This document shows, in pieces, positions 53,562-64,000 of a stretch of DNA of 64,000 nucleotides. This stretch comes from Streptomyces gardneri. Its GTDB lineage: Bacteria > Actinomycetota > Actinomycetes > Streptomycetales > Streptomycetaceae. Below the pieces are notes generated by a model. The model saw nothing but the letters and a program-made list of their open reading frames with translations. It was not told the DNA's origin and made no database searches. The stretch is from contig NZ_BJMN01000005.1 of assembly GCF_006539185.1 (NCBI RefSeq), positions 1-64,000 on the forward strand, in the 5' to 3' direction. Numbering within the stretch: position 1 is the stretch's first letter; every line of letters begins with the position of its first letter. Position numbers and translations under genes: made by a program.

Positions 53562-54362
53562 TCAGCGAGCCGTGCTCCGGCCGCCCTGTCCTCGTCCTTG
53601 CGACGGGCCGTCGGTCGGCGCGTCGGTGCGCGGGACGCCGAGGGTGGTCACGAGCCGGGTCAGCTCCTCCTGGAAGAGCTTGTCCGGGCTTGTCGTCTGG
53701 CGGCCGAGATGCCCGTACACCTCCAGGGCGACGAGCCCGTGCAGGTGCCCCCACAGCCGTAGCGCGAGGGCGACTCCGGCCGGCGGGAGGTCGGGGAAGG
53801 CCGGGCGCACCTTGTCGAGGAGTCCGGCGTCGAAGTCGGTCCAGGTGAACGCGCTGTCCCGGTAGAGGGGTTCGGCGTACGGCCAGGCCGCCGCGGCGAG
53901 TCCGGCGAGGCCGGTGCACACCCGGCGGGCCGCGTCCGGGGCGGGACCTTCCTCGGGGGCGCGGTAGCCGGGGACGGGGTCGCCGTACACGAGCCGGAAG
54001 CCCTCGGGGTTCGTCAGGGCCCAGGCTCGGAAGGCGCGGGTCCAGGCCAGGATCCGGGCGGCCGGGTCCTCGGCAGGGGTGTTCGCCCAGGCGGCGTCCA
54101 CGGCGTCGGCGAGCGCCGAGTACACGTCGTCGATGAGCGTGGTGACCAGGTCGTCGCGGGTGGCGAAGTAGCCGTAGATCGCGTTGGCCGTCATGCCCAT
54201 CTCGCGGGCGATGGCCCGCAGTGTGATCGCGTCGGGCCCGCCGGAGGCCATCAGCCGCAGAGCCGTGTCCTTGATCTCCGCCGTGGTCTCGGCCCGTAGC
54301 CGCTCACGGCGTCCCCGGCCGGCCGGCGGCGTCCCTGTCCGTGCTTCCGAAGTCCCGGTCAT
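53562..54362 (-). CDS. TetR-family regulator (TetR_C_13-like)
   Basis: A 266-residue repressor with Arg/Gly-rich tails. The DNA-binding domain is TAEIKDTALRLMASGGPDAI and TLRAIAREMGMTANAIYGYFATRDDLVT; the ligand domain contains FRAWALTNPEGFRLVYGDPVPGY and LRLWGHLHGLVALEVYGHL. These are the conserved marks of the TetR_C_13 group. Divergent from an SDR-type gene, with a 39-base palindrome between, so it likely represses that gene and itself. Confidence 0.92.
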   Translation of the reverse strand: MTGTSEARTGTPPAGRGRRERLRAETTAEIKDTALRLMASGGPDAITLRAIAREMGMTANAIYGYFATRDDLVTTLIDDVYSALADAVDAAWANTPAEDPAARILAWTRAFRAWALTNPEGFRLVYGDPVPGYRAPEEGPAPDAARRVCTGLAGLAAAAWPYAEPLYRDSAFTWTDFDAGLLDKVRPAFPDLPPAGVALALRLWGHLHGLVALEVYGHLGRQTTSPDKLFQEELTRLVTTLGVPRTDAPTDGPSQGRGQGGRSTAR

Positions 54363-54395
54363 CCGGGAACCCTACCGCTCCGCTGAGGGGTGTAG

Positions 54396-54434
54396 GAAAA
54401 CTGCACGCCGTGAACTTCACGGCGTATAGTTTTC
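54396..54434. promoter_or_regulatory. 39-base palindromic operator
   Basis: Centred on 54415, the inner arms ACGCCGTGAA and TTCACGGCGT are perfect around one base, and the outer arms GAAAACT and AGTTTTC are also perfect; only two base pairs between them fail. It overlaps TATAGT (54425-54430), a likely -10 of the divergent SDR-type gene. The adjacent TetR protein is the expected ligand. Confidence 0.8.
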
Positions 54435-54483
54435 GCACGGCGTCACGTGAGTCGCGTCGTGGATGTGATCACAGGGGAGAGTC

Positions 54484-55191
54484 ATGCGCATCGGAGTCAT
54501 CGGAGCCACCGGCACCATCGGCAGCCGCGTCGTCGCGGAGGCCCTCGCACGCGGGCACGACATCAGGGCCTTCGGCCGCGACACCACCGGGGCCGCGGCC
54601 GCCGAGACCCGCGAGAACATCACCTGGACGAGCCTCGACGTCCTCGACCCCGAGGGCATCGCCGCCGTCCTGCCGGGACTCGACGTCCTGATCAGCGCCT
54701 TCCAGCCCGGAAACGCCGCCCGGGACCTCGCGGACACCATCGAGCGCTCCATCGCCGACGCCGGCGTCTACGCCACCGCGGCCCGGGCCCTGCTCAAGGC
54801 CCTGGAGACCCATCCCAGGACCCGGCTGATCGTCGTAGGCGGCGCCGGCAGCCTGGAGATCGAGCCCGGAGTGGTGCTCGCCGACGCGGAGGAGCGTCTC
54901 CACGAGACCCTCGACTCCGTCGGGCTGCCCCGTGCCTACGCGGCGGCGGTACGCGGCCACCGGGACGCCCTGAACGTGCTGCGCACCTCGAACCGTCGAT
55001 GGACCTACTTCAGCCCCGCCGAGGACATCGCGCCCGGCGAGCGCACCGGCCGCTTCCGTATAGGCGAGGACCAGCCGGTCAGGGACGCCGAGGGACGCAG
55101 CCGCGTCTCGGCCGAGGACGCCGCCGTGGCGCTCGTCGACGAGGCGGAGCTGCCCCGCTTCGTCCAGCGCCGCTTCACCATCGGTTACTGA
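54484..55191 (+). CDS. NAD(P)-binding SDR-like (NmrA/YwnB-type) protein
   Basis: A 235-residue protein that starts MRIGVIGATGTIGSRVVAEAL, a GxxGxxG dinucleotide-binding site, followed by ITWTSLDVLDP and GLDVLISAFQPG. ALKALETHPRTRLIVVGGAGSLE and WTYFSPAEDIAPGERTGRFRIG are typical of the YwnB/NmrA-like atypical SDR group, often redox sensors or small reductases. GGGGAGA before the ATG. The operator upstream suggests control by the divergent TetR protein. A terminator follows. Confidence 0.88.
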   Translation: MRIGVIGATGTIGSRVVAEALARGHDIRAFGRDTTGAAAAETRENITWTSLDVLDPEGIAAVLPGLDVLISAFQPGNAARDLADTIERSIADAGVYATAARALLKALETHPRTRLIVVGGAGSLEIEPGVVLADAEERLHETLDSVGLPRAYAAAVRGHRDALNVLRTSNRRWTYFSPAEDIAPGERTGRFRIGEDQPVRDAEGRSRVSAEDAAVALVDEAELPRFVQRRFTIGY

Positions 55192-55264: not shown

Positions 55265-57046
55265 TCAGCCGTGCCAGGACCGCCACAGCGCCGCGTACGC
55301 GCCGTCCGCCGCCACCAGCTCGTCGTGGCTGCCCAGCTCGCTGATCCGGCCGGCCTCGACCACCGCGATCAGATCGGCGTCGTGCGCGGTGTGCAGCCGG
55401 TGCGCGATGGCCACGACCGTACGCCCGTCGAGGACCCGGGCGAGCGACCGCTCCAGATGCCGGGCCGCCCTCGGGTCGAGGAGCGAGGTCGCCTCGTCCA
55501 GGACCAGCGTGTGCGGGTCCGCCAGGACGAGCCGGGCCAGCGCCACCTGCTGGGCCTGCGCCGGGGTGAGCGAACGGCCGCCCGAGCCGACCTCCGTGTC
55601 CAGGCCCTCGTCGAGGCCCCGGGCCCACCCGTCCGCGTCCACCGCGGACAGGGCCTCCCACAGGTCGGCGTCGGCGGCGCCGGTCCGGGCGAGCAGCAGA
55701 TTGTCCCGGAGCGAGCCGACGAAGACGTGGTGCTCCTGATTGACCAGGGCCACGTGCTCGCGGACCCGCTCGGCGGGCATCCGCGCCAGCTCGGCGGCGC
55801 CGAGGGTGACCGAGCCCGTCCTCGGGGCGTAGATGCCCGCGAGCAGCCGGCCGAGCGTGGACTTGCCCGCGCCCGACGGGCCCACGAGGGCGAGCCGGGT
55901 GCCCGGCGCCACCTTCAGGGACACCTCGTGCAGCACGTCGACGCCCTCGCGGTAGCCGAACCGGACCTCGTCCGCCCGGACGGCCCGCCCGTCCGGGCGT
56001 ACCTCGTGGTCGCCCGCGGCCGGTTCGATGTCCCGGACGCCGACCAGCCGGCCCAGCGAGACCTGCGCGACCTGGAGCTCGTCGTACCAGCGGAGCACGA
56101 TCCCGATCGGGTCCACCAGCATCTGGGCGAGCAACGCACCCGTCGTCAGCTGGCCCACGTCGATCCAGCCCTGGAAGACGAAGACCCCGCCGAGGAGGAG
56201 GACACCGCACAGCACCGTCGTGTGGGTGAGCGTGACGACCGGGAAGAGCACCGACCGCAGGAAGAGCGTGTACCTCTCCCACGCGACCCACTCGGTGATG
56301 CGCCGGTCGGAGAGGGCGACGCGCTCCGCGCCGAGGCGGTGCGACTCGACGGTGCGCCCCGCGTCGACCGTCTCGGCCAGCGCGGCGGCCACCGCCGCGT
56401 ACCCCGCGGACTCCGAGCGGTACGCGGACGGCGCCCGCTTGAAGTACCAGCGGCAGCCCACGACGAGCACCGGCGCCGCGAGCAGCGCCGCGAGCGCGAG
56501 CGGGGGCGCGGTCACGGCGAGCCCGCCGAGCAGCAGTCCCACCCAGACGACGCCGATGGCCAGCTGGGGCACGGCCTCGCGCATGGCGTTGGCGAGCCGG
56601 TCGATGTCCGTGGTGATACGGGAGAGCAGGTCGCCCGTGCCGGCCCGTTCGAGGACGCCGGGCGGCAGGCCGACGGAGCGGACGAGGAAGTCCTCTCGCA
56701 GATCGGCGAGCATCTCCTCGCCGAGCATCGCCCCGCGCAGCCGGACGAGCCGGACGAAGACCGTCTGGACGATCAGGGCGACCGCGAACAGCGCGACCGT
56801 CCGCTCCAGATGGAGGTCGCGGGCCCCGGCGCTCAGCTCGTCGACCACCGAACCGAGGAGGTACGGGCCGGTCATCGAGGCGATCACGGCGACCGCGTTC
56901 ACCCCGATGAGCAGGGCGAACGCCCTGCGGTGACGGCGCAGCAGCTCCCGTACGTAGATCCGTACGGTCGGGCCGGCCGCGACGGGCAGCGTCGTCGCCG
57001 TCGTGGGGGCCGCCGGGTCGTACTCCGGTGGCGCCAGGCCGATCAT
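55265..57046 (-). CDS. ABC exporter half-transporter with degenerate signature motif
   Basis: A 593-residue half transporter: membrane domain with six spans (about 35-320) and an ATPase domain (about 360-590). Walker A GPSGAGKST, Q-loop LVNQEHH, Walker B TLVLDEATS and the switch AIAHRL are all intact, but the signature that should be LSGGQ reads LTPAQ (in RSLTPAQAQQVALARL). It therefore needs a partner to supply a working signature. The gene starts inside the stop codon of the upstream partner (ATGA, 4-base overlap), which carries the complementary defects. Substrate unknown; heterodimeric exporters of this kind carry drugs, lipids or peptides. Confidence 0.94.
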   Translation of the reverse strand: MIGLAPPEYDPAAPTTATTLPVAAGPTVRIYVRELLRRHRRAFALLIGVNAVAVIASMTGPYLLGSVVDELSAGARDLHLERTVALFAVALIVQTVFVRLVRLRGAMLGEEMLADLREDFLVRSVGLPPGVLERAGTGDLLSRITTDIDRLANAMREAVPQLAIGVVWVGLLLGGLAVTAPPLALAALLAAPVLVVGCRWYFKRAPSAYRSESAGYAAVAAALAETVDAGRTVESHRLGAERVALSDRRITEWVAWERYTLFLRSVLFPVVTLTHTTVLCGVLLLGGVFVFQGWIDVGQLTTGALLAQMLVDPIGIVLRWYDELQVAQVSLGRLVGVRDIEPAAGDHEVRPDGRAVRADEVRFGYREGVDVLHEVSLKVAPGTRLALVGPSGAGKSTLGRLLAGIYAPRTGSVTLGAAELARMPAERVREHVALVNQEHHVFVGSLRDNLLLARTGAADADLWEALSAVDADGWARGLDEGLDTEVGSGGRSLTPAQAQQVALARLVLADPHTLVLDEATSLLDPRAARHLERSLARVLDGRTVVAIAHRLHTAHDADLIAVVEAGRISELGSHDELVAADGAYAALWRSWHG

Positions 57047-58866
57047 GCCGTTTCCCCTTCCAGTGCGTCGAGTTCGTCCGTGTCGATGCCGTGGAGGCGG
57101 CTGCCCGCCGCGGCGAGCTCCTCGTCCGTCTCGCGGGTGACGACCGCGCGGTAGCGGGGCTCCTTCGCGAGCAGTTCACGGTGGGTGCCGACGGCGACCG
57201 CCTGCCCGTCGTGGACCAGGACCACCCGGTCGGCGCGGTCGAGGAGCAGCGGCGAGGAGGCGAGGACCACGGTGGTCCCGCCCTCGCGCAGCCGGGCGAT
57301 GCCGTCCGCCACCCGGGACTCGGTGTGCGAGTCGACCGCCGAGGTGGGCTCGTCCAGGACGAGCACCTCCGGATCGGTCACCAGGGAGCGGGCGAGCGCG
57401 AGCCGCTGGCGCTGGCCGCCGGAGAGCGACCGGCCCCGCTCGGTGATCCGCGTCCGCATCGGGTCCCCGTCGGTGTCGACGGAGGCCTGGGCGAGTGCGT
57501 CGAGGACGTCGCCGCACTGGGCGGCGGCGAGCGCGTCCTCGGCCCGGACCGCGCCCGAGGAAGGCACGTCGAGGAGCTCCCGCAGGGTGCCCGAGAGCAG
57601 GACCGGGTCCTTGTCCTGCACGAGGACGGCCGTACGGGCGGCCGCCAGCGGCAGCTCGTCCAGCGGGACCCCGCCGAGCAGGACGGAGGTGTGCCCCTCG
57701 GCCGGTTCGGTCGGGTGTCCGCCGAGCCGGTCCGCGAGCCGTCCGGCCACGTCCGGGTCGCCGCAGACGACGGCGGTGAAGCGGCCGGCCGGGGCGACGA
57801 GCCCGGTCAGCGGGTCGTACAGGTCGCCGGTCGCCTCGCGCTCCTCGCCCGCGGCGTCGGTGGTGGTCGTGGTGCGGGTCAGCGCGAGAACCCGGGCGGC
57901 CCGCTTCGCCGACGGCCGGGAGAAGGAGAAGGCCATCGCGATCTCCTCGAAGTTCCTCATCGGGTGATGGGTGAGGGCCACGGCGCCGTAGACGGTGACG
58001 AGTTCGCCGACCGTGATCCGCCCGTCGAGCGCGAGCCGAGCGCCGTACGCCACGACGACGATGAGCAGGACGCCGGGCAGGAGGACCTGGATCGCGGCGA
58101 TCAGCGCCCACATCCGCGCGCTGTGCACGGCGGCCTTGCGGACCTCCTGGGAGGCGGCGCGGTAGCGGCCGAGGAACAGCTCCTCGCCGCCGATGCCGCG
58201 CAGGACGCGGAGTCCGGCGACGGTGTCGGAGGCCAGCTCCGTGGCCTTGCCCGCCTTCTCGCGCTGGACGTCCGCACGCCGCGTCGCGCGGGGGAGGAGC
58301 GGCAGCACGGCGAGGGCGAGGACGGGGACGCCGATCGCGACGACGATGCCCAGGGCGGGCTGGTAGACGACGAGGGCGACGCAGACGATCAGCAGGGAGA
58401 GGGCGGCGGCGGCGAACCGGGACAGCGCCTCGACGAACCAGCCGATCTTCTCGACGTCGCCCGTGGACACGGAGACGACTTCGCCCGCTGCGACCCGTCG
58501 GGTCAGGACCGAGCCCAGCTCGGCGGTCTTGCGGGAGAGGAGCTGCTGGACCCGGGCGGCGGCGGTGATCCAGTTGGTGACGGCGACGCGGTGGAGCATC
58601 GTGTCGCCGACCGCGATGGCGAGCCCGCAGCCCACGAGCAGCCCGGCGGCGAGTGCGAGCCGCCCGCCGTCACGGTCCACGACCGCCTGCACGGCGACGC
58701 CGACGCCGAGCGGCAGTCCGGCGATGCCCAGCTGGAGGAGCAGCCCCCAGAGCAGGGCCTTCACCTGTCCGCCGAGCTGGTTGCGGCCGAGCCAGAGGAG
58801 GAACCGGGTGCCCGAGCGGACATCGGGTGCCCCTGGGTCGGCGTAGGGAAGATCTCGAATCTGCAT
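57043..58866 (-). CDS. ABC exporter half-transporter with degenerate Walker A
   Basis: A 607-residue half transporter with six spans (about 45-330) and an ATPase domain whose signature ERGRSLSGGQRQR and Walker B VLVLDEPTS are perfect. The Walker A position reads VVCGDPDVAGRLADRLGG: it has no GxxGxGK(S/T) and no lysine, so it cannot bind ATP normally. The switch histidine is also missing (LASSPLL). With the downstream partner, these lesions combine into one canonical and one dead ATP site. Start ATG 58866. The pair probably exports a compound; no regulator is adjacent. Confidence 0.93.
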   Translation of the reverse strand: MQIRDLPYADPGAPDVRSGTRFLLWLGRNQLGGQVKALLWGLLLQLGIAGLPLGVGVAVQAVVDRDGGRLALAAGLLVGCGLAIAVGDTMLHRVAVTNWITAAARVQQLLSRKTAELGSVLTRRVAAGEVVSVSTGDVEKIGWFVEALSRFAAAALSLLIVCVALVVYQPALGIVVAIGVPVLALAVLPLLPRATRRADVQREKAGKATELASDTVAGLRVLRGIGGEELFLGRYRAASQEVRKAAVHSARMWALIAAIQVLLPGVLLIVVVAYGARLALDGRITVGELVTVYGAVALTHHPMRNFEEIAMAFSFSRPSAKRAARVLALTRTTTTTDAAGEEREATGDLYDPLTGLVAPAGRFTAVVCGDPDVAGRLADRLGGHPTEPAEGHTSVLLGGVPLDELPLAAARTAVLVQDKDPVLLSGTLRELLDVPSSGAVRAEDALAAAQCGDVLDALAQASVDTDGDPMRTRITERGRSLSGGQRQRLALARSLVTDPEVLVLDEPTSAVDSHTESRVADGIARLREGGTTVVLASSPLLLDRADRVVLVHDGQAVAVGTHRELLAKEPRYRAVVTRETDEELAAAGSRLHGIDTDELDALEGETA

Positions 58867-59061
58867 GGCGTCCCAGGATCTCCGGGTCTGTCTGGGTGGG
58901 GGATCGCGCGCCGGGGGTGCGACGGCGGAGTGGAAACCGTGCAAGGTTCGCTTTTTCCCCAGGGAGCGGCAATCGATTTTCCCCAAGAGGGAACAGATCG
59001 CGCCATGTCCGCTCATCGTCCTCTGGACCGCGCCGCGGTGACCGCGCTTCACTTCCGCCCC

Positions 59062-60678
59062 ATGAGATCACTCAAGATCATGAGCATGCTCAGCGGTCTG
59101 GTCCTGGCCGCCGGGGCGCTGCTCACCGCCCACCCGGCCGCCGCCGAGGGTCCGAACGGCCCGACGCCCCCGGCCGAGTTCGCCAGCGACTGGCACGACC
59201 CGGTCACCGCCGCCCCGCCCGTCGAGACCCCCGGCACCCGCAGCTGCGAGGTCACCCTCGCCGCCGCGCAGTTCCGCGACTTCACCCCGTACCAGGGCCG
59301 GTACACCCCGCCGAAGGAGTGCGGCACCCGCTGGAACAAGGTCGTCCTCCGGCTCGAAGGCAGCGTCAAGGGCCGTCAGTACGACCGGCTCGGCTACCTC
59401 ACCGTCGGCGGCGTGGAGATCCTCCGCACCTCCACGCCCCAGCCCTCGCCCGACGGCATCTCCTGGTCCGTCGAGAAGGACGTCACCCGCTACCGCGACA
59501 CCCTCAGCCGTCCGCAGCCCGTCGAGATGCTCATCGGCAATGTCGTGAACGAGACGTACACGGGCGTCCTCGACGTCCGGGTCACCCTCACCTTCCACAC
59601 CGCCGAGGGCCGCGTGAAGCCCGCCGCCGGCACCCCCGACCGGGTGATCCCCCTCACCGGCCCCACCCTCACCACCCCGCGCAACACCGAACGGCTCCTC
59701 GCCGAGGTGTACGCCACCGGCTCCGGCGGCGGCTGCGAGGAGTACTGGTACCTCTCCGTCCCCGACACCGCCCCCTACTCCTGCCGGGCGACCGACGGCC
59801 CGCACCGCGAGGTCCGGATCGCCGTCGACGGCCGGCTCGCGGGCATCGCGGCCCCCTTCCCCACGGTCTGGACCGGAGGCTGGTCCAACCCCTTCCTCTG
59901 GTACGTCACCCCCGGCCCGCGCGCCTTCGACGTCCAGCCGGTCGTCTACGACCTCACGCCCTTCGCCGCCCTCCTCAACGACGGCCGGGCCCACCGCGTG
60001 GAGGTCTCCGTCGCCGGCGTCCCGGCCGGCCTGAGCGGCTGGTCCGTCCCCACCAACGTGCTGCTCTGGCAGGACGAGGGCAGTCGGGTCGTCACCGGCG
60101 GGCTCGACCGGCACGAGGAGAGCGTCCCGCGCAACTCCTCCGTGTACACGGCGGCCTCCGGGACCGCCCCGCACACCGTCGACACCGGGGCGGGACACCG
60201 GCTCACCGTCGCGGGTCACCTGAACACCTCGCACGGCCGGATCACCACCACCGTCGACCGGACCGTCGGCCACACCTCGGTCCACCGCTGGGGCGAGGGC
60301 GAGAACCCGGACGCGTTCACCGGGCGCTGGACGGACGACGAGACCGTGACCAGCGGCCGTACCGTCACCCGCGTCCAGCGCGCGTACACCATGGACGGCG
60401 AGACGACGATCGGCACGGGCGACCGGCTGCGGACGGTCCTCACCCTCGGGGACCGCGCCGACACCCTCGTCCTGCGCGACGGGCGACGCCTCTCCTGGTC
60501 GCGCCTGGACGACACGTACACCGGGGACGCGACCTACACCACCGGTGTGCCGCGCGACCAGCGGCACGCGGTCGGCACCACCACCGAGCGCTACCGGCTG
60601 TACGGCTCCGAGGGCTGCTGGGACCGGAGCCTGACGACGGTTCAGGGGACGCTCACCGAGGACCGGCGGCGCTGCTGA
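59062..60678 (+). CDS. Secreted peptide N-glycosidase A-like protein
   Basis: An exported protein of 538 residues. The signal peptide runs about 1-28 (MRSLKIMSMLSGLVLAAGALL, AHPAAAE). The PNGase A family core follows: FTPYQGRYTPPKECGTRWNK, VVLRLEGSVKGRQYDRLGYLTVGG, VEILRTSTPQPSPDGISWSV, EKDVTRYR and NVVNETYTGVLDVRVTL, which in plant and fungal relatives release N-glycans from asparagine. The C-terminal part is beta-rich. An upstream ATG at 59005 is possible. A convergent GH109 glycosidase gene follows after a terminator. Substrate specificity and activity are inference from family. Confidence 0.85.
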   Translation: MRSLKIMSMLSGLVLAAGALLTAHPAAAEGPNGPTPPAEFASDWHDPVTAAPPVETPGTRSCEVTLAAAQFRDFTPYQGRYTPPKECGTRWNKVVLRLEGSVKGRQYDRLGYLTVGGVEILRTSTPQPSPDGISWSVEKDVTRYRDTLSRPQPVEMLIGNVVNETYTGVLDVRVTLTFHTAEGRVKPAAGTPDRVIPLTGPTLTTPRNTERLLAEVYATGSGGGCEEYWYLSVPDTAPYSCRATDGPHREVRIAVDGRLAGIAAPFPTVWTGGWSNPFLWYVTPGPRAFDVQPVVYDLTPFAALLNDGRAHRVEVSVAGVPAGLSGWSVPTNVLLWQDEGSRVVTGGLDRHEESVPRNSSVYTAASGTAPHTVDTGAGHRLTVAGHLNTSHGRITTTVDRTVGHTSVHRWGEGENPDAFTGRWTDDETVTSGRTVTRVQRAYTMDGETTIGTGDRLRTVLTLGDRADTLVLRDGRRLSWSRLDDTYTGDATYTTGVPRDQRHAVGTTTERYRLYGSEGCWDRSLTTVQGTLTEDRRRC

Positions 60679-60685
60679 ACACGGC

Positions 60686-60719
60686 GGTGCCCGGCCCCCG
60701 CACTCGGAGGCCGGGCACC
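60686..60719. terminator. Bidirectional hairpin terminator
   Basis: Arms GGTGCCCGGCC and GGCCGGGCACC around a 12-base loop, between the convergent PNGase A-like and GH109 genes. Confidence 0.85.
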
Positions 60720-60726
60720 ACACACC

Positions 60727-62163
60727 TCAGGCGGGCTTGACCGAGTCCACGCCCGAGCGGGCGTTGCTCCACTCGCCGCGCGTGAAGTCGGGGATCGCCT
60801 GCGGCGCGCCCTTCGCCTTGATCGAGGCATGGCTCAGCGGCACCGGAGCCGTCCACGTGGCCGCGTCGTACACGTCGAAGTCCGGGACCAGGCCCAGCTG
60901 CACGCACTGCATCAGCCGGTAGATCATGATGTAGTCCATGCCGCCGTGGCCGCCGGGCGGGTTGGCGTGCTCCTTCCACAGCCAGTGGTCGAACTCGGCG
61001 GCGTACGACGAGAAGTCGGCCCACTGGTCGTTCGTGTGGTCCGGCTCCAGGTAGATCCGGGCCGGGTAGTCCTCGAAGACGCCCTTCGTACCGCCCAGGC
61101 TGTTGATCCGGCTGTACGGGTGCGGGGTGGAGACGTCGTGCTCCAGCCGGATGAGCCGTCCCTTGGCCGTCTGGACCAGACTGATCGTCCGGTCGCTCTC
61201 GATGTACGTCTCCTTCCAGCTCGGGTCGCCGGGCGGCATGTGCTCCGCGCGGTACTCGGCGAGCCCGAGCGCCGGCGTGCCGAAACTGCTGATGCTCACC
61301 ACCCGGTCGCCGCGGTTGACGTCCATGTAGTTGGCGACGGGCCCGAAGCCGTGGTTGGGGTAGAGGTCGCCGCGCAGCCGCGTGTGCCACAGCCGGCGCC
61401 AGGGCCCCTCGTAGTAGGTCGGCGAGAACATCAGGCCGCGCAGGTCGTGGTTGTACGCCCCCGCGCCGTGCAGCAGTTGGCCGAACTTGCCGGCGTGCGC
61501 CATGCGCAGGACCCGCATCTCGTTCCGCCCGTAGCAGCAGTTCTCCAGCTGCATGCAGTGGCGGCGGGTCTGCTCCGAGAGGTCGACCAGCTCCCAGAGC
61601 TCGGCGATCGTCATCGCGATCGGACACTCGACGCCGACGTGCTTGCCGTTCAGCATCGCCGCCTTGGCCATCGGGAAGTGCTGGTCCCAGGGGGTGGCCA
61701 CGTAGACGAAGTCGAGGTCGGAACGGGCGCAGAGGTTCTCGTAGTCGTCCTCGCCGTTCGTGTACACGGCGGGCGCGGGCTGACCGGCGGCGACGACCTT
61801 GGCGGCGGCCCGCTCGGCCTTCTCCCGCACCGGGTCGCAGACGGCCACCACCCGCACCCAGGGGAGCGCGAGGAAGAGGCCGATCATGCCGTTGCCCCGG
61901 TTGCCGAGGCCGACGATCCCGACACGGACCGTGGAACGGCCGTCGAAGGGAACCCCGGCCATGGTCTGTCCGCGACGCCTGGGCGTGCCCCCGGCGGCGG
62001 TCTCCGTCGTCGCTTCCGCCGTGGTCGTGGTGGCGGCCGACGCGGTGGCGGCCTGGGCGGCCGGCGCTCCGACGGCGGCGATGCCGAGGCCTGCTCCGGC
62101 CGCGCCCGCGGTGGTCCTGAGGACCTTGCGACGGCTCGGGCTGGGCGGTACCTGCTCGTTCAT
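60727..62163 (-). CDS. Tat-exported Gfo/Idh/MocA-family enzyme, GH109-type glycosidase
   Basis: A 478-residue protein. [17 protein letters not shown] at the N-terminus is a Tat signal, then an Ala/Thr linker. The dinucleotide fold is [17 protein letters not shown], and [16 protein letters not shown] follows as in GH109. [31 protein letters not shown] and [10 protein letters not shown] match the GH109 alpha-N-acetylgalactosaminidase line (Elizabethkingia NagA), which uses bound NAD in a redox-based hydrolysis. GGAGG before the ATG. Export together with NAD binding implies folding before transport, as Tat does. Substrate: terminal GalNAc or similar on glycans. Confidence 0.88.
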
Positions 62164-62394: not shown

Positions 62395-64000
62395 TCAGGG
62401 ACGGGTCGCGCGCTCCAGGGCGAGCAGCACCGACTGATAGGTGCGGCCGGTGGCCCGGTCCATCCCGATCTCGCACATCCGGTTGGCCGACAGGTGCGCG
62501 TCGAAGGAGCGGGCCGTGACCTCGGCCGCCTCGCGCGCCGTCGCCGAGGCCGTCAGCTCCGGATGCAGCATGCCGCGGTCGCCCGCGAAGGCGCAGCAGC
62601 CCGCGTCGGCGGGGACGACGACCTCCTCGGCGCACGCCTCGGCCAGCCGGGTCAGCTGCTCCTCGTCGCCCAGGTGGCGCATGGAGCAGGTCGGGTGGAC
62701 CACGGCGGAGGTGACCCGGCGGCGCACGTCGAGCCGGGGGAGCAGCTCGTCCGCCGCCCAGACGAGGGAGTCGAGGACGGTGAGCTCGCCGTGCAGCTCG
62801 CGGTTGTCCGCCGTGAGGTACGGGACGACCTCCTGCGCGATACCGAGCGTGCACGAGGAGGCGTCGACGACGAGGGGCAGTTTCCCGCCGGCGGTCCACC
62901 CCCAGGCGGCCTCGACGATCCGGTTGGCCATCACCTCGTTGCCCCGCTCGTACCCCTTGGAGTGCCAGATCGTGGCGCAGCACGTGCCGGCCACGTCGTC
63001 GGGGATCCACACCGGCTTCCCGGCCCGCGCCGACACGGCGACGACGGCCTCCGGCAGGGAGGGGCCGCGATGGCCGTCGGGCCCGCCGAAGATCCGGTTC
63101 ACACAGGCCGGGTAGTAGACGGCGACGGCCGCAGGACGATGGGTGCGGGGCAGCCGGCGCGCGGCCGCACCCGGGATCTCGGGCAGCCACTCCGGTACGA
63201 GATCGGGGCGGACGGCCTTGCGGGCCAGGCCGGTCACCCTCTCCAGGACCCGGTCGCCGATCCGGTCGGCGGCGGCCACCGCGAGCCGCGCCGAGGCCTC
63301 CACCGCGCGGAAGTTCCTCGCGGCCAGGGCGGCGATCCGCTCCTCGCGCGGCGAGTGCCGCTCGTGCCGGAACTCCTTCATGAGCGCGCCCGTGTCGATC
63401 CCGACCGGGCAGGCCAGCTTGCAGGTGGAGTCGCCGGCGCAGGTGTCGACGGCGTCGTAGCCGTACGCCTCCAGGAGGCGGGCCTCGACGGGTGAGCCGT
63501 CCGGCTGGCGCATCATCTCCCGGCGCAGCACGATCCGCTGGCGCGGAGTGGTCGTCAGGTCCTGGCTGGGACAGGTCGGTTCGCAGAAGCCGCACTCGAT
63601 GCAGGGGTCCACGATCCGCTCCACCGTCGGGATCGTCTTCAGGCCGCGCAGATGGGCCTGCGGATCGCGGTCGAGGACGATCCTGGGGGCGAGGACCCCG
63701 TCGGGGTCGATGATCTCCTTGACCCGCCACATCAGCTCGGTCGCCTTCGTCCCCCACTCCAGCTCCAGGAACGGCGCGATGTTGCGTCCGGTGGCGTGCT
63801 CGGCCTTCAGCGAGCCGTCGAACCGCTCCACGGTCAGCTTGCAGAACTCGTCCATGAAGGCCGCGTACCGCTCGACGTCGGCCGGGTCGCCGGCGTCGAA
63901 CGCGAGAAGGAAGTGGAGGTTCCCGTGGGCCGCGTGGCCGGCGACGGCCGCGTCGAAGCCGTGCCGGGACTGGAGGTCGAGCAGCTCGGCACAGGCCTCC
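62395..64000 (-). CDS. FAD-linked oxidase with Fe-S domain (D-2-hydroxyacid dehydrogenase type), N-terminus cut off
   Basis: The gene runs off the right edge; 535 codons of its 3' part are present. AGHAAHGNLHFLLAFDAG is the end of a FAD-oxidase C-terminal domain. Two 4Fe-4S motifs follow: CIECGFCEPTCPS and CAGDSTCKLACPVGI. Then come two CCG/GlpC-type segments (YYPACVNRIFG, GTCCATIWHSKGYERG, PTCSMRHLG, GCCAFAGDRGM). This order (FAD, ferredoxin, CCG) is that of D-lactate/glycolate dehydrogenases that pass electrons to the respiratory chain. Substrate not determinable. A terminator follows the stop. Confidence 0.9.
   Translation of the reverse strand, partial: EACAELLDLQSRHGFDAAVAGHAAHGNLHFLLAFDAGDPADVERYAAFMDEFCKLTVERFDGSLKAEHATGRNIAPFLELEWGTKATELMWRVKEIIDPDGVLAPRIVLDRDPQAHLRGLKTIPTVERIVDPCIECGFCEPTCPSQDLTTTPRQRIVLRREMMRQPDGSPVEARLLEAYGYDAVDTCAGDSTCKLACPVGIDTGALMKEFRHERHSPREERIAALAARNFRAVEASARLAVAAADRIGDRVLERVTGLARKAVRPDLVPEWLPEIPGAAARRLPRTHRPAAVAVYYPACVNRIFGGPDGHRGPSLPEAVVAVSARAGKPVWIPDDVAGTCCATIWHSKGYERGNEVMANRIVEAAWGWTAGGKLPLVVDASSCTLGIAQEVVPYLTADNRELHGELTVLDSLVWAADELLPRLDVRRRVTSAVVHPTCSMRHLGDEEQLTRLAEACAEEVVVPADAGCCAFAGDRGMLHPELTASATAREAAEVTARSFDAHLSANRMCEIGMDRATGRTYQSVLLALERATRP

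Follow-up and report, generated by a model that had tools for sequence, protein, structure and literature searches.

Introduction

Endo-type release of N-glycans by Streptomyces has long been known, as with Endo H of Streptomyces plicatus. The closest described systems for an amidase route are the relatives of plant PNGase A, for which a bacterial homologue, PNGase H+ of Terriglobus roseus, has been reported (PMC4231336). A homologue panel that included proteins of S. populi and S. albulus has also been tested; the Xt, Ac and Ka enzymes equalled the Tr enzyme and were surpassed by Ft and Dj, whereas deglycosylation by the others was negligible (PMC7348039). By inference from the text, the two Streptomyces homologues were among the negligible ones on horseradish peroxidase. 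Apart from this recombinant test, our literature searches turned up no amidase route for Streptomyces in nature, and among the papers listed there was nothing usable on Streptomyces PNGase A or GH109.

In PNGase F, the residues Trp59, Asp60 and Arg61 form a motif, and Asp60 and Glu206 lie in the active site (PMC12753239). The enzymes with which Bacteroides attacks plant N-glycans include a PNGase active on plant-type N-glycans (PMC9522356), while characterised GH109 enzymes have been described as N-acetylgalactosaminidases, often acting on both anomers (PMC12269599).

Organisation of the locus

In the window, i.e., the whole stretch of 64,000 nucleotides of Streptomyces gardneri DNA that was analysed, a gene of the PNGase A family (gene 1, encoding P0001) faces a GH109-family gene (gene 2, encoding P0002) on the opposite strand (Table 1). 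Both genes lie where the original prediction had placed them, the end of the pair corresponding to the GH109 start codon.

Table 1. Features of the PNGase–GH109 locus and its surroundings in the window.
Feature	Coordinates	Strand	Basis
Two ABC exporter genes, left frame of the slot (ABC_b 55265-57046, ABC_a 57043-58866)	55265..58866	-	Pfam
Conserved box CCGTGCAAGGNTCGC preceding both ABC_a and the PNGase gene	58937..58951	+	locus comparison
PNGase A-family amidase gene, P0001, 538 aa, probably secreted	59062..60678	+	translation, Pfam, 9vla match
Putative Sec signal peptide of P0001, about residues 1-28	59062..59145	+	by eye and hydropathy
Y107-D108-R109 codons, candidate catalytic motif	59380..59388	+	D108 and R109 in 124/124 rows
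E227 codon, second invariant acidic candidate	59740..59742	+	124/124 rows
Hairpin between the two stop codons, which may serve both genes as a bidirectional terminator	60686..60719		-33.1 kcal/mol
GH109-family NAD-dependent glycosidase gene, P0002, 478 aa	60727..62163	-	Pfam, PDB matches
GGHGG loop, residues 404-408, H406 at the AmGH109A His404 position	60940..60954	-	alignment
Putative Tat signal of P0002, about residues 1-38	62050..62163	-	by eye; SRRKVLR, residues 10-16
FAD-linked oxidase / 4Fe-4S protein, right neighbour, optional in the slot	62395..64000, runs off the window	-	Pfam, gene orders

The stop codons of the two convergent genes are only 48 bp apart, and the hairpin between them is strong (z -3.66; none of 200 shuffled sequences was as stable). 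The most natural reading is therefore that the PNGase and GH109 genes are transcribed separately, perhaps sharing a terminator. The conserved box upstream of the PNGase gene was also present in five loci that lack PNGase, and thus goes with ABC_a, a gene for which 232 of 246 Streptomyces genomes gave a match (E <= 1e-100).

Two in-frame ATG codons, at 59080 and 59086, could place the true start of the PNGase gene a few codons downstream of the one adopted here. An extension of the frame to a start at 59005 is improbable, since some relatives have single-base indels in that stretch, and a 1216-codon open reading frame (57028-60678) is an upstream extension of the PNGase frame running antisense to the ABC genes, and not a gene.

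P0001 belongs to the PNGase A family

The sole Pfam domain of P0001 is PNGaseA (PF12222), which scores 208.1 bits (cut-off 25.3) over profile positions 11-330 of 336; the PNGase F domains PF09112 and PF09113 were absent, PF12222 being the only match at E-values up to 0.1. Of the 411 relatives found, the best 80 named ones comprise 79 labelled Streptomyces and a single unclassified actinobacterium; the highest similarity, 96% identity, is to S. narbonensis. The description of this protein as eukaryote-like is correct only insofar as the family takes its name from a plant enzyme; bacterial members have been published as well (PMC4231336 and PMC7348039).

The only relative of known structure identified by sequence was PNGase Bb (PDB 9vla), with an E-value of 5.4e-48 for the single sequence and 2.3e-89 for a profile of 22 sequences. 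The same profile search did not reach PNGase F and returned 9vla alone even at E 10. No paper under the name "PNGase Bb" was found in our literature searches.

The AlphaFold2 model of P0001, for which 22 sequences from Streptomyces loci were used, has a mean pLDDT of 76.3 and a pTM of 0.79, with low-confidence loops at residues 270-286. It matched 9vla nearly end to end (Z 33.4, rmsd 2.8, 473 of 538 residues aligned), while PNGase F (1png, 3pms) matched its N-terminal two domains over 235-237 residues with Z of about 15 (15.2 for 3pms); further PNGases followed in the structure comparison. The two-domain beta-sandwich fold of PNGases is thus present in the predicted model.

An alignment of 124 rows was compiled from 121 of 124 loci passing the filter, together with P0001, 9vla and L162, a distant relative from another genus; it includes copies of the window's own gene and some species taken twice, and two of the PNGase loci have internal stops. 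The residues W91, G104, D108, R109, D140, E227, W229 and D256 are invariant in all 124 rows, 9vla and L162 included. L162 carries W-D-R where P0001 has Y-D-R. Judging from sequence, the D108-R109 motif could correspond to Trp59-Asp60-Arg61 of PNGase F, and the invariant acidic candidates to its Asp60 and Glu206. Our literature searches found no published catalytic-residue assignment for the PF12222 family.

The export signals of both proteins were judged by eye and hydropathy. The N-terminus of P0001 is hydrophobic and Sec-like, with a maximum 12-residue hydropathy of 2.25, and 109 of 120 full-length relatives passed the same hydropathy test at their N-termini.

Distribution in Streptomyces and association with GH85

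The PNGase A and GH109 families are both known and are common in Streptomyces: PF12222 was detected in 115 of 246 genomes and GH109_C in 104 of 246, which contradicts the suggestion that such enzymes are unusual in soil streptomycetes. A draw across the phylum yielded PF12222 in only three of 346 genomes: the window's own, a second Streptomyces genome, and one from outside Streptomyces whose match is weak. PNGase A is therefore typical of Streptomyces within its phylum, and no oddity inside the genus. The source genome contains one PF12222 gene, one GH109_C gene, one GH85 gene (contig C30) and four GH20 genes, with no match to the GH92 mannosidases; the PNGase and GH85 genes are located on different contigs.

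Three families were tried as partners of PNGase, namely GH109, GH92 and GH85. Among the 246 genomes, PNGase and the endo-acting N-glycan enzyme GH85 (ENGase) co-occur in 66 against 45.8 expected (odds ratio 4.17, p 1.5e-7). No association was found with GH92 (87 genomes against 91.6 expected, n = 246), and PNGase and GH109 were found together in 42 genomes against 48.6 expected (odds ratio 0.64, p 0.09, n = 246). As far as GH109 and GH92 are concerned, a dedicated N-glycan utilisation locus is not indicated by these counts, PNGase being associated with neither; the co-occurrence with GH85, which need not be linked to it, is the one sign of such a system.

The associations were also evaluated on an ABC_a tree of 140 genomes, the highest-scoring of the 232 with a match. 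On this tree the two traits of each pair were simulated independently of each other, with two-state models fitted to them. For PNGase and GH85, 0.22% of 5000 simulations and 0.35% of 20,000 attained the phi of 0.366 (P = 0.0022 and 0.0035), under a null that rests on one gene tree and a similarity-ranked sample and takes no account of genome size; GH109 and GH92, used as rough controls, gave phi values of -0.152 and -0.103, neither of them notable. The co-distribution of PNGase with GH85 is the one lead worth testing.

These results bear on the possibility that the PNGase A-like enzymes of Streptomyces have, as a clade, moved from eukaryotic N-glycoproteins to another amide-linked sugar, or are weak or pH-restricted. 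The negligible activity assigned by inference to the S. populi and S. albulus homologues (PMC7348039) points that way and is the strongest result against assuming that P0001 is active. Those negative assays used protein made in E. coli, and poor folding in that host may be an alternative cause of the weakness of the Streptomyces homologues. Moreover, the invariant acidic residues common to PNGase Bb, the nearly full-length match to a structure solved with the MUXF glycopeptide, and the co-distribution with the GH85 ENGase all argue against this reading, and we consider it unlikely.

PNGase and GH109 share a variable slot

The two genes are close and convergent in 18 of the 246 genomes, with a gap between the domain matches of less than 1 kb in 13 and of 2.4-2.6 kb in five. 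In these five loci (L151-L155), an intervening gene was called in four, and it was a dicarboxylate symporter in three. Likewise, at least 33 of the best 80 PNGase loci, some of which end near the gene, carry GH109 downstream on the opposite strand. Adjacency in so many genomes may reflect some coupling between PNGase and GH109.

To describe the surroundings, 119 neighbourhoods (loci of at least 7 kb, with L045 of the 80 PNGase-selected loci omitted) were annotated with a simple custom gene finder. A recurrent frame was observed, consisting of ABC_b and ABC_a on the left and of a MarR gene and an ABC exporter gene on the right, between which a set of optional genes is found: an L,D-transpeptidase-like lipoprotein, PNGase, a sodium:dicarboxylate symporter, GH109, an alpha-amylase, and the FAD-linked oxidase. 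Loci containing both ABC_a and MarR comprised 28 with PNGase and GH109, 23 with PNGase only, and 23 with GH109 only, counts that reflect the choice of loci. A GH109 gene with a shorter match and no adjoining PNGase was present in 45 genomes, 30 of which were fetched as loci; at least one frame gene was found in all 30, and both in 23. Neither frame gene was seen in 23 PNGase loci, some of which are cut short and one group of which lies at another locus. The simplest reading is that there is one variable slot, and that each of its cargo genes comes and goes independently of the others. As PNGase and GH109 are each found alone in this slot, they appear to be neighbours by location rather than by pathway.

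The original prediction had proposed that the two enzymes jointly remove and trim glycans, which would make them a dedicated glycoprotein module, PNGase A freeing N-glycans and GH109 removing GalNAc from these or from glycans associated with them. The convergent adjacency described above and the probable export of both proteins are in line with this idea. It is nevertheless improbable, and membership of one pathway on the grounds of adjacency is rejected, given a co-occurrence at or below chance, also on the tree, and the independent presence of each gene in one slot, every PNGase-less GH109 locus fetched having a frame gene of that slot beside it. The separate, convergent transcription of the genes argues in the same direction, as does the fact that GalNAc lies outside the usual N-glycan core.

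P0002 belongs to the GH109 family

P0002 contains a GH109_C domain (PF21252, 161.1 bits) and the Gfo/Idh/MocA Rossmann domain (PF01408, 65.9 bits), and its best PDB matches are GH109 enzymes, 6t2b (E 1.3e-91) and 2ixa (E 8.6e-80); the identity to the Akkermansia enzyme 6t2b is 39% (159 of 412 residues). The family assignments originally proposed for both proteins are thus confirmed by their Pfam domains and by the PDB and fold matches.

Roles have been given to Tyr226, His259 and His404 of AmGH109A (PMC10755693). These residues align with Y237, H271 and H406 of P0002, each identical in all 82 rows of an alignment comprising 80 of 84 loci past the length filter, P0002 and 6t2b, some rows being copies of the window's own gene or species taken twice. 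The GH109 catalytic residues, whose absence would have refuted the original prediction, are thus conserved. The GGHGG loop around H406 varies little, G405 being replaced by A in five rows and G407 by N in one. In the GH109 enzyme of S. linguale, the His matching H271 is essential, and the H225A variant was inactive (PMC6521355).

The N-terminus of P0002 carries the motif SRRKVLR, consistent with a putative Tat signal. With start codons chosen automatically, an RR-x-hydrophobic motif was present within the first 45 residues in 40 of 41 full-length GH109 proteins whose locus also holds PNGase; for loci without PNGase the count was 30 of 35. Such a motif fits a protein that would fold around NAD before export. 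Taken with the Sec-like N-terminus of P0001, it makes the predicted export of both proteins likely.

That P0002 might be an exported Gfo/Idh/MocA oxidoreductase and no glycosidase, as its Rossmann domain and weak NCBIfam matches to sugar dehydrogenases and other oxidoreductases could suggest, is very unlikely, since these matches are all far under their cut-offs while the GH109_C domain, the GH109 structures as best PDB matches, the GGHGG histidine and the catalytic Tyr and His are all in place.

Proposed roles of the two enzymes

Considering all these data, we regard it as probable that the locus encodes a secreted PNGase A amidase and a Tat-exported GH109 enzyme that are neighbours in a slot, with GH85 the likelier partner of the amidase. 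P0001 would be secreted and would most likely cleave the glycosyl-asparagine bond of plant, fungal or insect N-glycoproteins in soil, using invariant acidic residues, with D108, E227 and D256 as candidates, on a PNGase F-like two-domain beta-sandwich. P0002 is expected to fold around NAD in the cytoplasm, to be exported by the Tat route, and to cleave an N-acetylgalactosaminide-like sugar via transient C3 oxidation, with Y237, H271 and H406 as the catalytic residues suggested by homology. Both genes would be optional occupants of one conserved slot of Streptomyces, which has an ABC exporter pair on one side and a MarR/ABC pair on the other; they would be transcribed convergently towards a hairpin that they may share and brought together by location, whereas the likelier functional partner of PNGase, the GH85 ENGase, would be encoded elsewhere in the genome.

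More tentatively, one could hypothesise that PNGase A and GH85 form a co-selected but unlinked kit for N-glycan foraging, and that PNGase A was acquired at the level of the genus, being nearly a Streptomyces trait within its phylum; we consider this possible, though rather doubtful. In such a kit, PNGase would deal with glycans possibly not accepted by ENGases, for instance the core alpha-1,3-fucosylated ones of plants and insects, and endo cleavage would serve for the rest.

Should the PNGase A proteins prove active, the ability to strip whole N-glycans from plant, fungal or insect proteins in soil could extend to almost half of the Streptomyces species sampled, and the enzymes could be possible reagents for plant-type N-glycans. 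The slot analysis also warns that adjacency of CAZyme-like genes is no guide to function when both are optional cargo of a hotspot.

Comparison with known systems

PNGase Bb, solved with the MUXF glycopeptide (9vla), is 36% identical to P0001 across the 351 residues aligned in the segment compared. The two proteins have D108, D140, E227, E250, D256, D297 and D307 in common (P0001 numbering), while PNGase Bb has Q in place of E215. PNGase H+ and its relatives are PNGase A homologues like P0001, a likeness that follows from family membership; Tr, Ka, Dj and others of them were active, unlike, it seems, the Streptomyces members of the panel (PMC7348039).

PNGase F shares the two-domain fold with residues 59-340 of the P0001 model and resembles it in the Y/W-D-R motif, but lacks the additional C-terminal part that P0001 has in common with 9vla. 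The Bacteroides PNGase 7zgn matches the model through the core fold only (Z 14.3), and its gene adjoins a GH92 mannosidase gene in some species (PMC9522356), in contrast to the source genome, which is without GH92.

P0002 resembles AmGH109A (6t2b) and NagA (2ixa) in its Rossmann and GH109_C domains, the catalytic Tyr, the two His and the GGHGG loop, and differs from them in its putative Tat export and its actinobacterial source.

A variable slot beside an ABC exporter pair

The slot between ABC_a, a gene of the ABC exporter pair, and the MarR and ABC4 exporter genes is a hotspot for optional genes (loci L033-L160), and its cargo, besides the PNGase A and GH109 genes, comprises an L,D-transpeptidase-like lipoprotein, a dicarboxylate symporter, an alpha-amylase, and an FAD-linked oxidase. 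Next to ABC_a lies the box CCGTGCAAGGNTCGC, which is conserved in 38 of the 87 annotated loci holding ABC_a, at a distance of 31–183 bp from the predicted start of this gene; PNGase is absent from five of these 38 loci. The box may act as a promoter or operator for the ABC pair. The TetR and NAD(P)H-binding gene pair was found in 8 of 119 annotated loci, each of them from a close relative of the window.

Features considered in the S. gardneri genome
Feature	Position	Strand	Remark
TetR regulator and divergent NAD(P)H-binding protein	53562-55191		Left of the ABC pair
15-base box CCGTGCAAGGNTCGC	58937-58951		Conserved in 38 of 87 annotated loci with ABC_a
GH85 endo-beta-N-acetylglucosaminidase	G000:C30:68466-69362	-	Other contig than the PNGase A gene

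Distribution of PNGase A and its candidate partner

A further group of streptomycetes carries PNGase A at a different locus (L064-L068, L074, L076, L080, L084, L086, L090, L092, L097, L101, and L107), where the neighbouring genes, judged by eye, appear to encode membrane proteins and a protein kinase. The PF12222 copies of some streptomycetes (G067, G157, and G204) carry in-frame stops, and such stops may reflect gene loss under way. Among 14 control genomes, a PF12222 match was found only in the archaeon Sulfolobus acidocaldarius. The GH85 enzyme encoded in the S. gardneri genome itself is a candidate functional partner for PNGase A.
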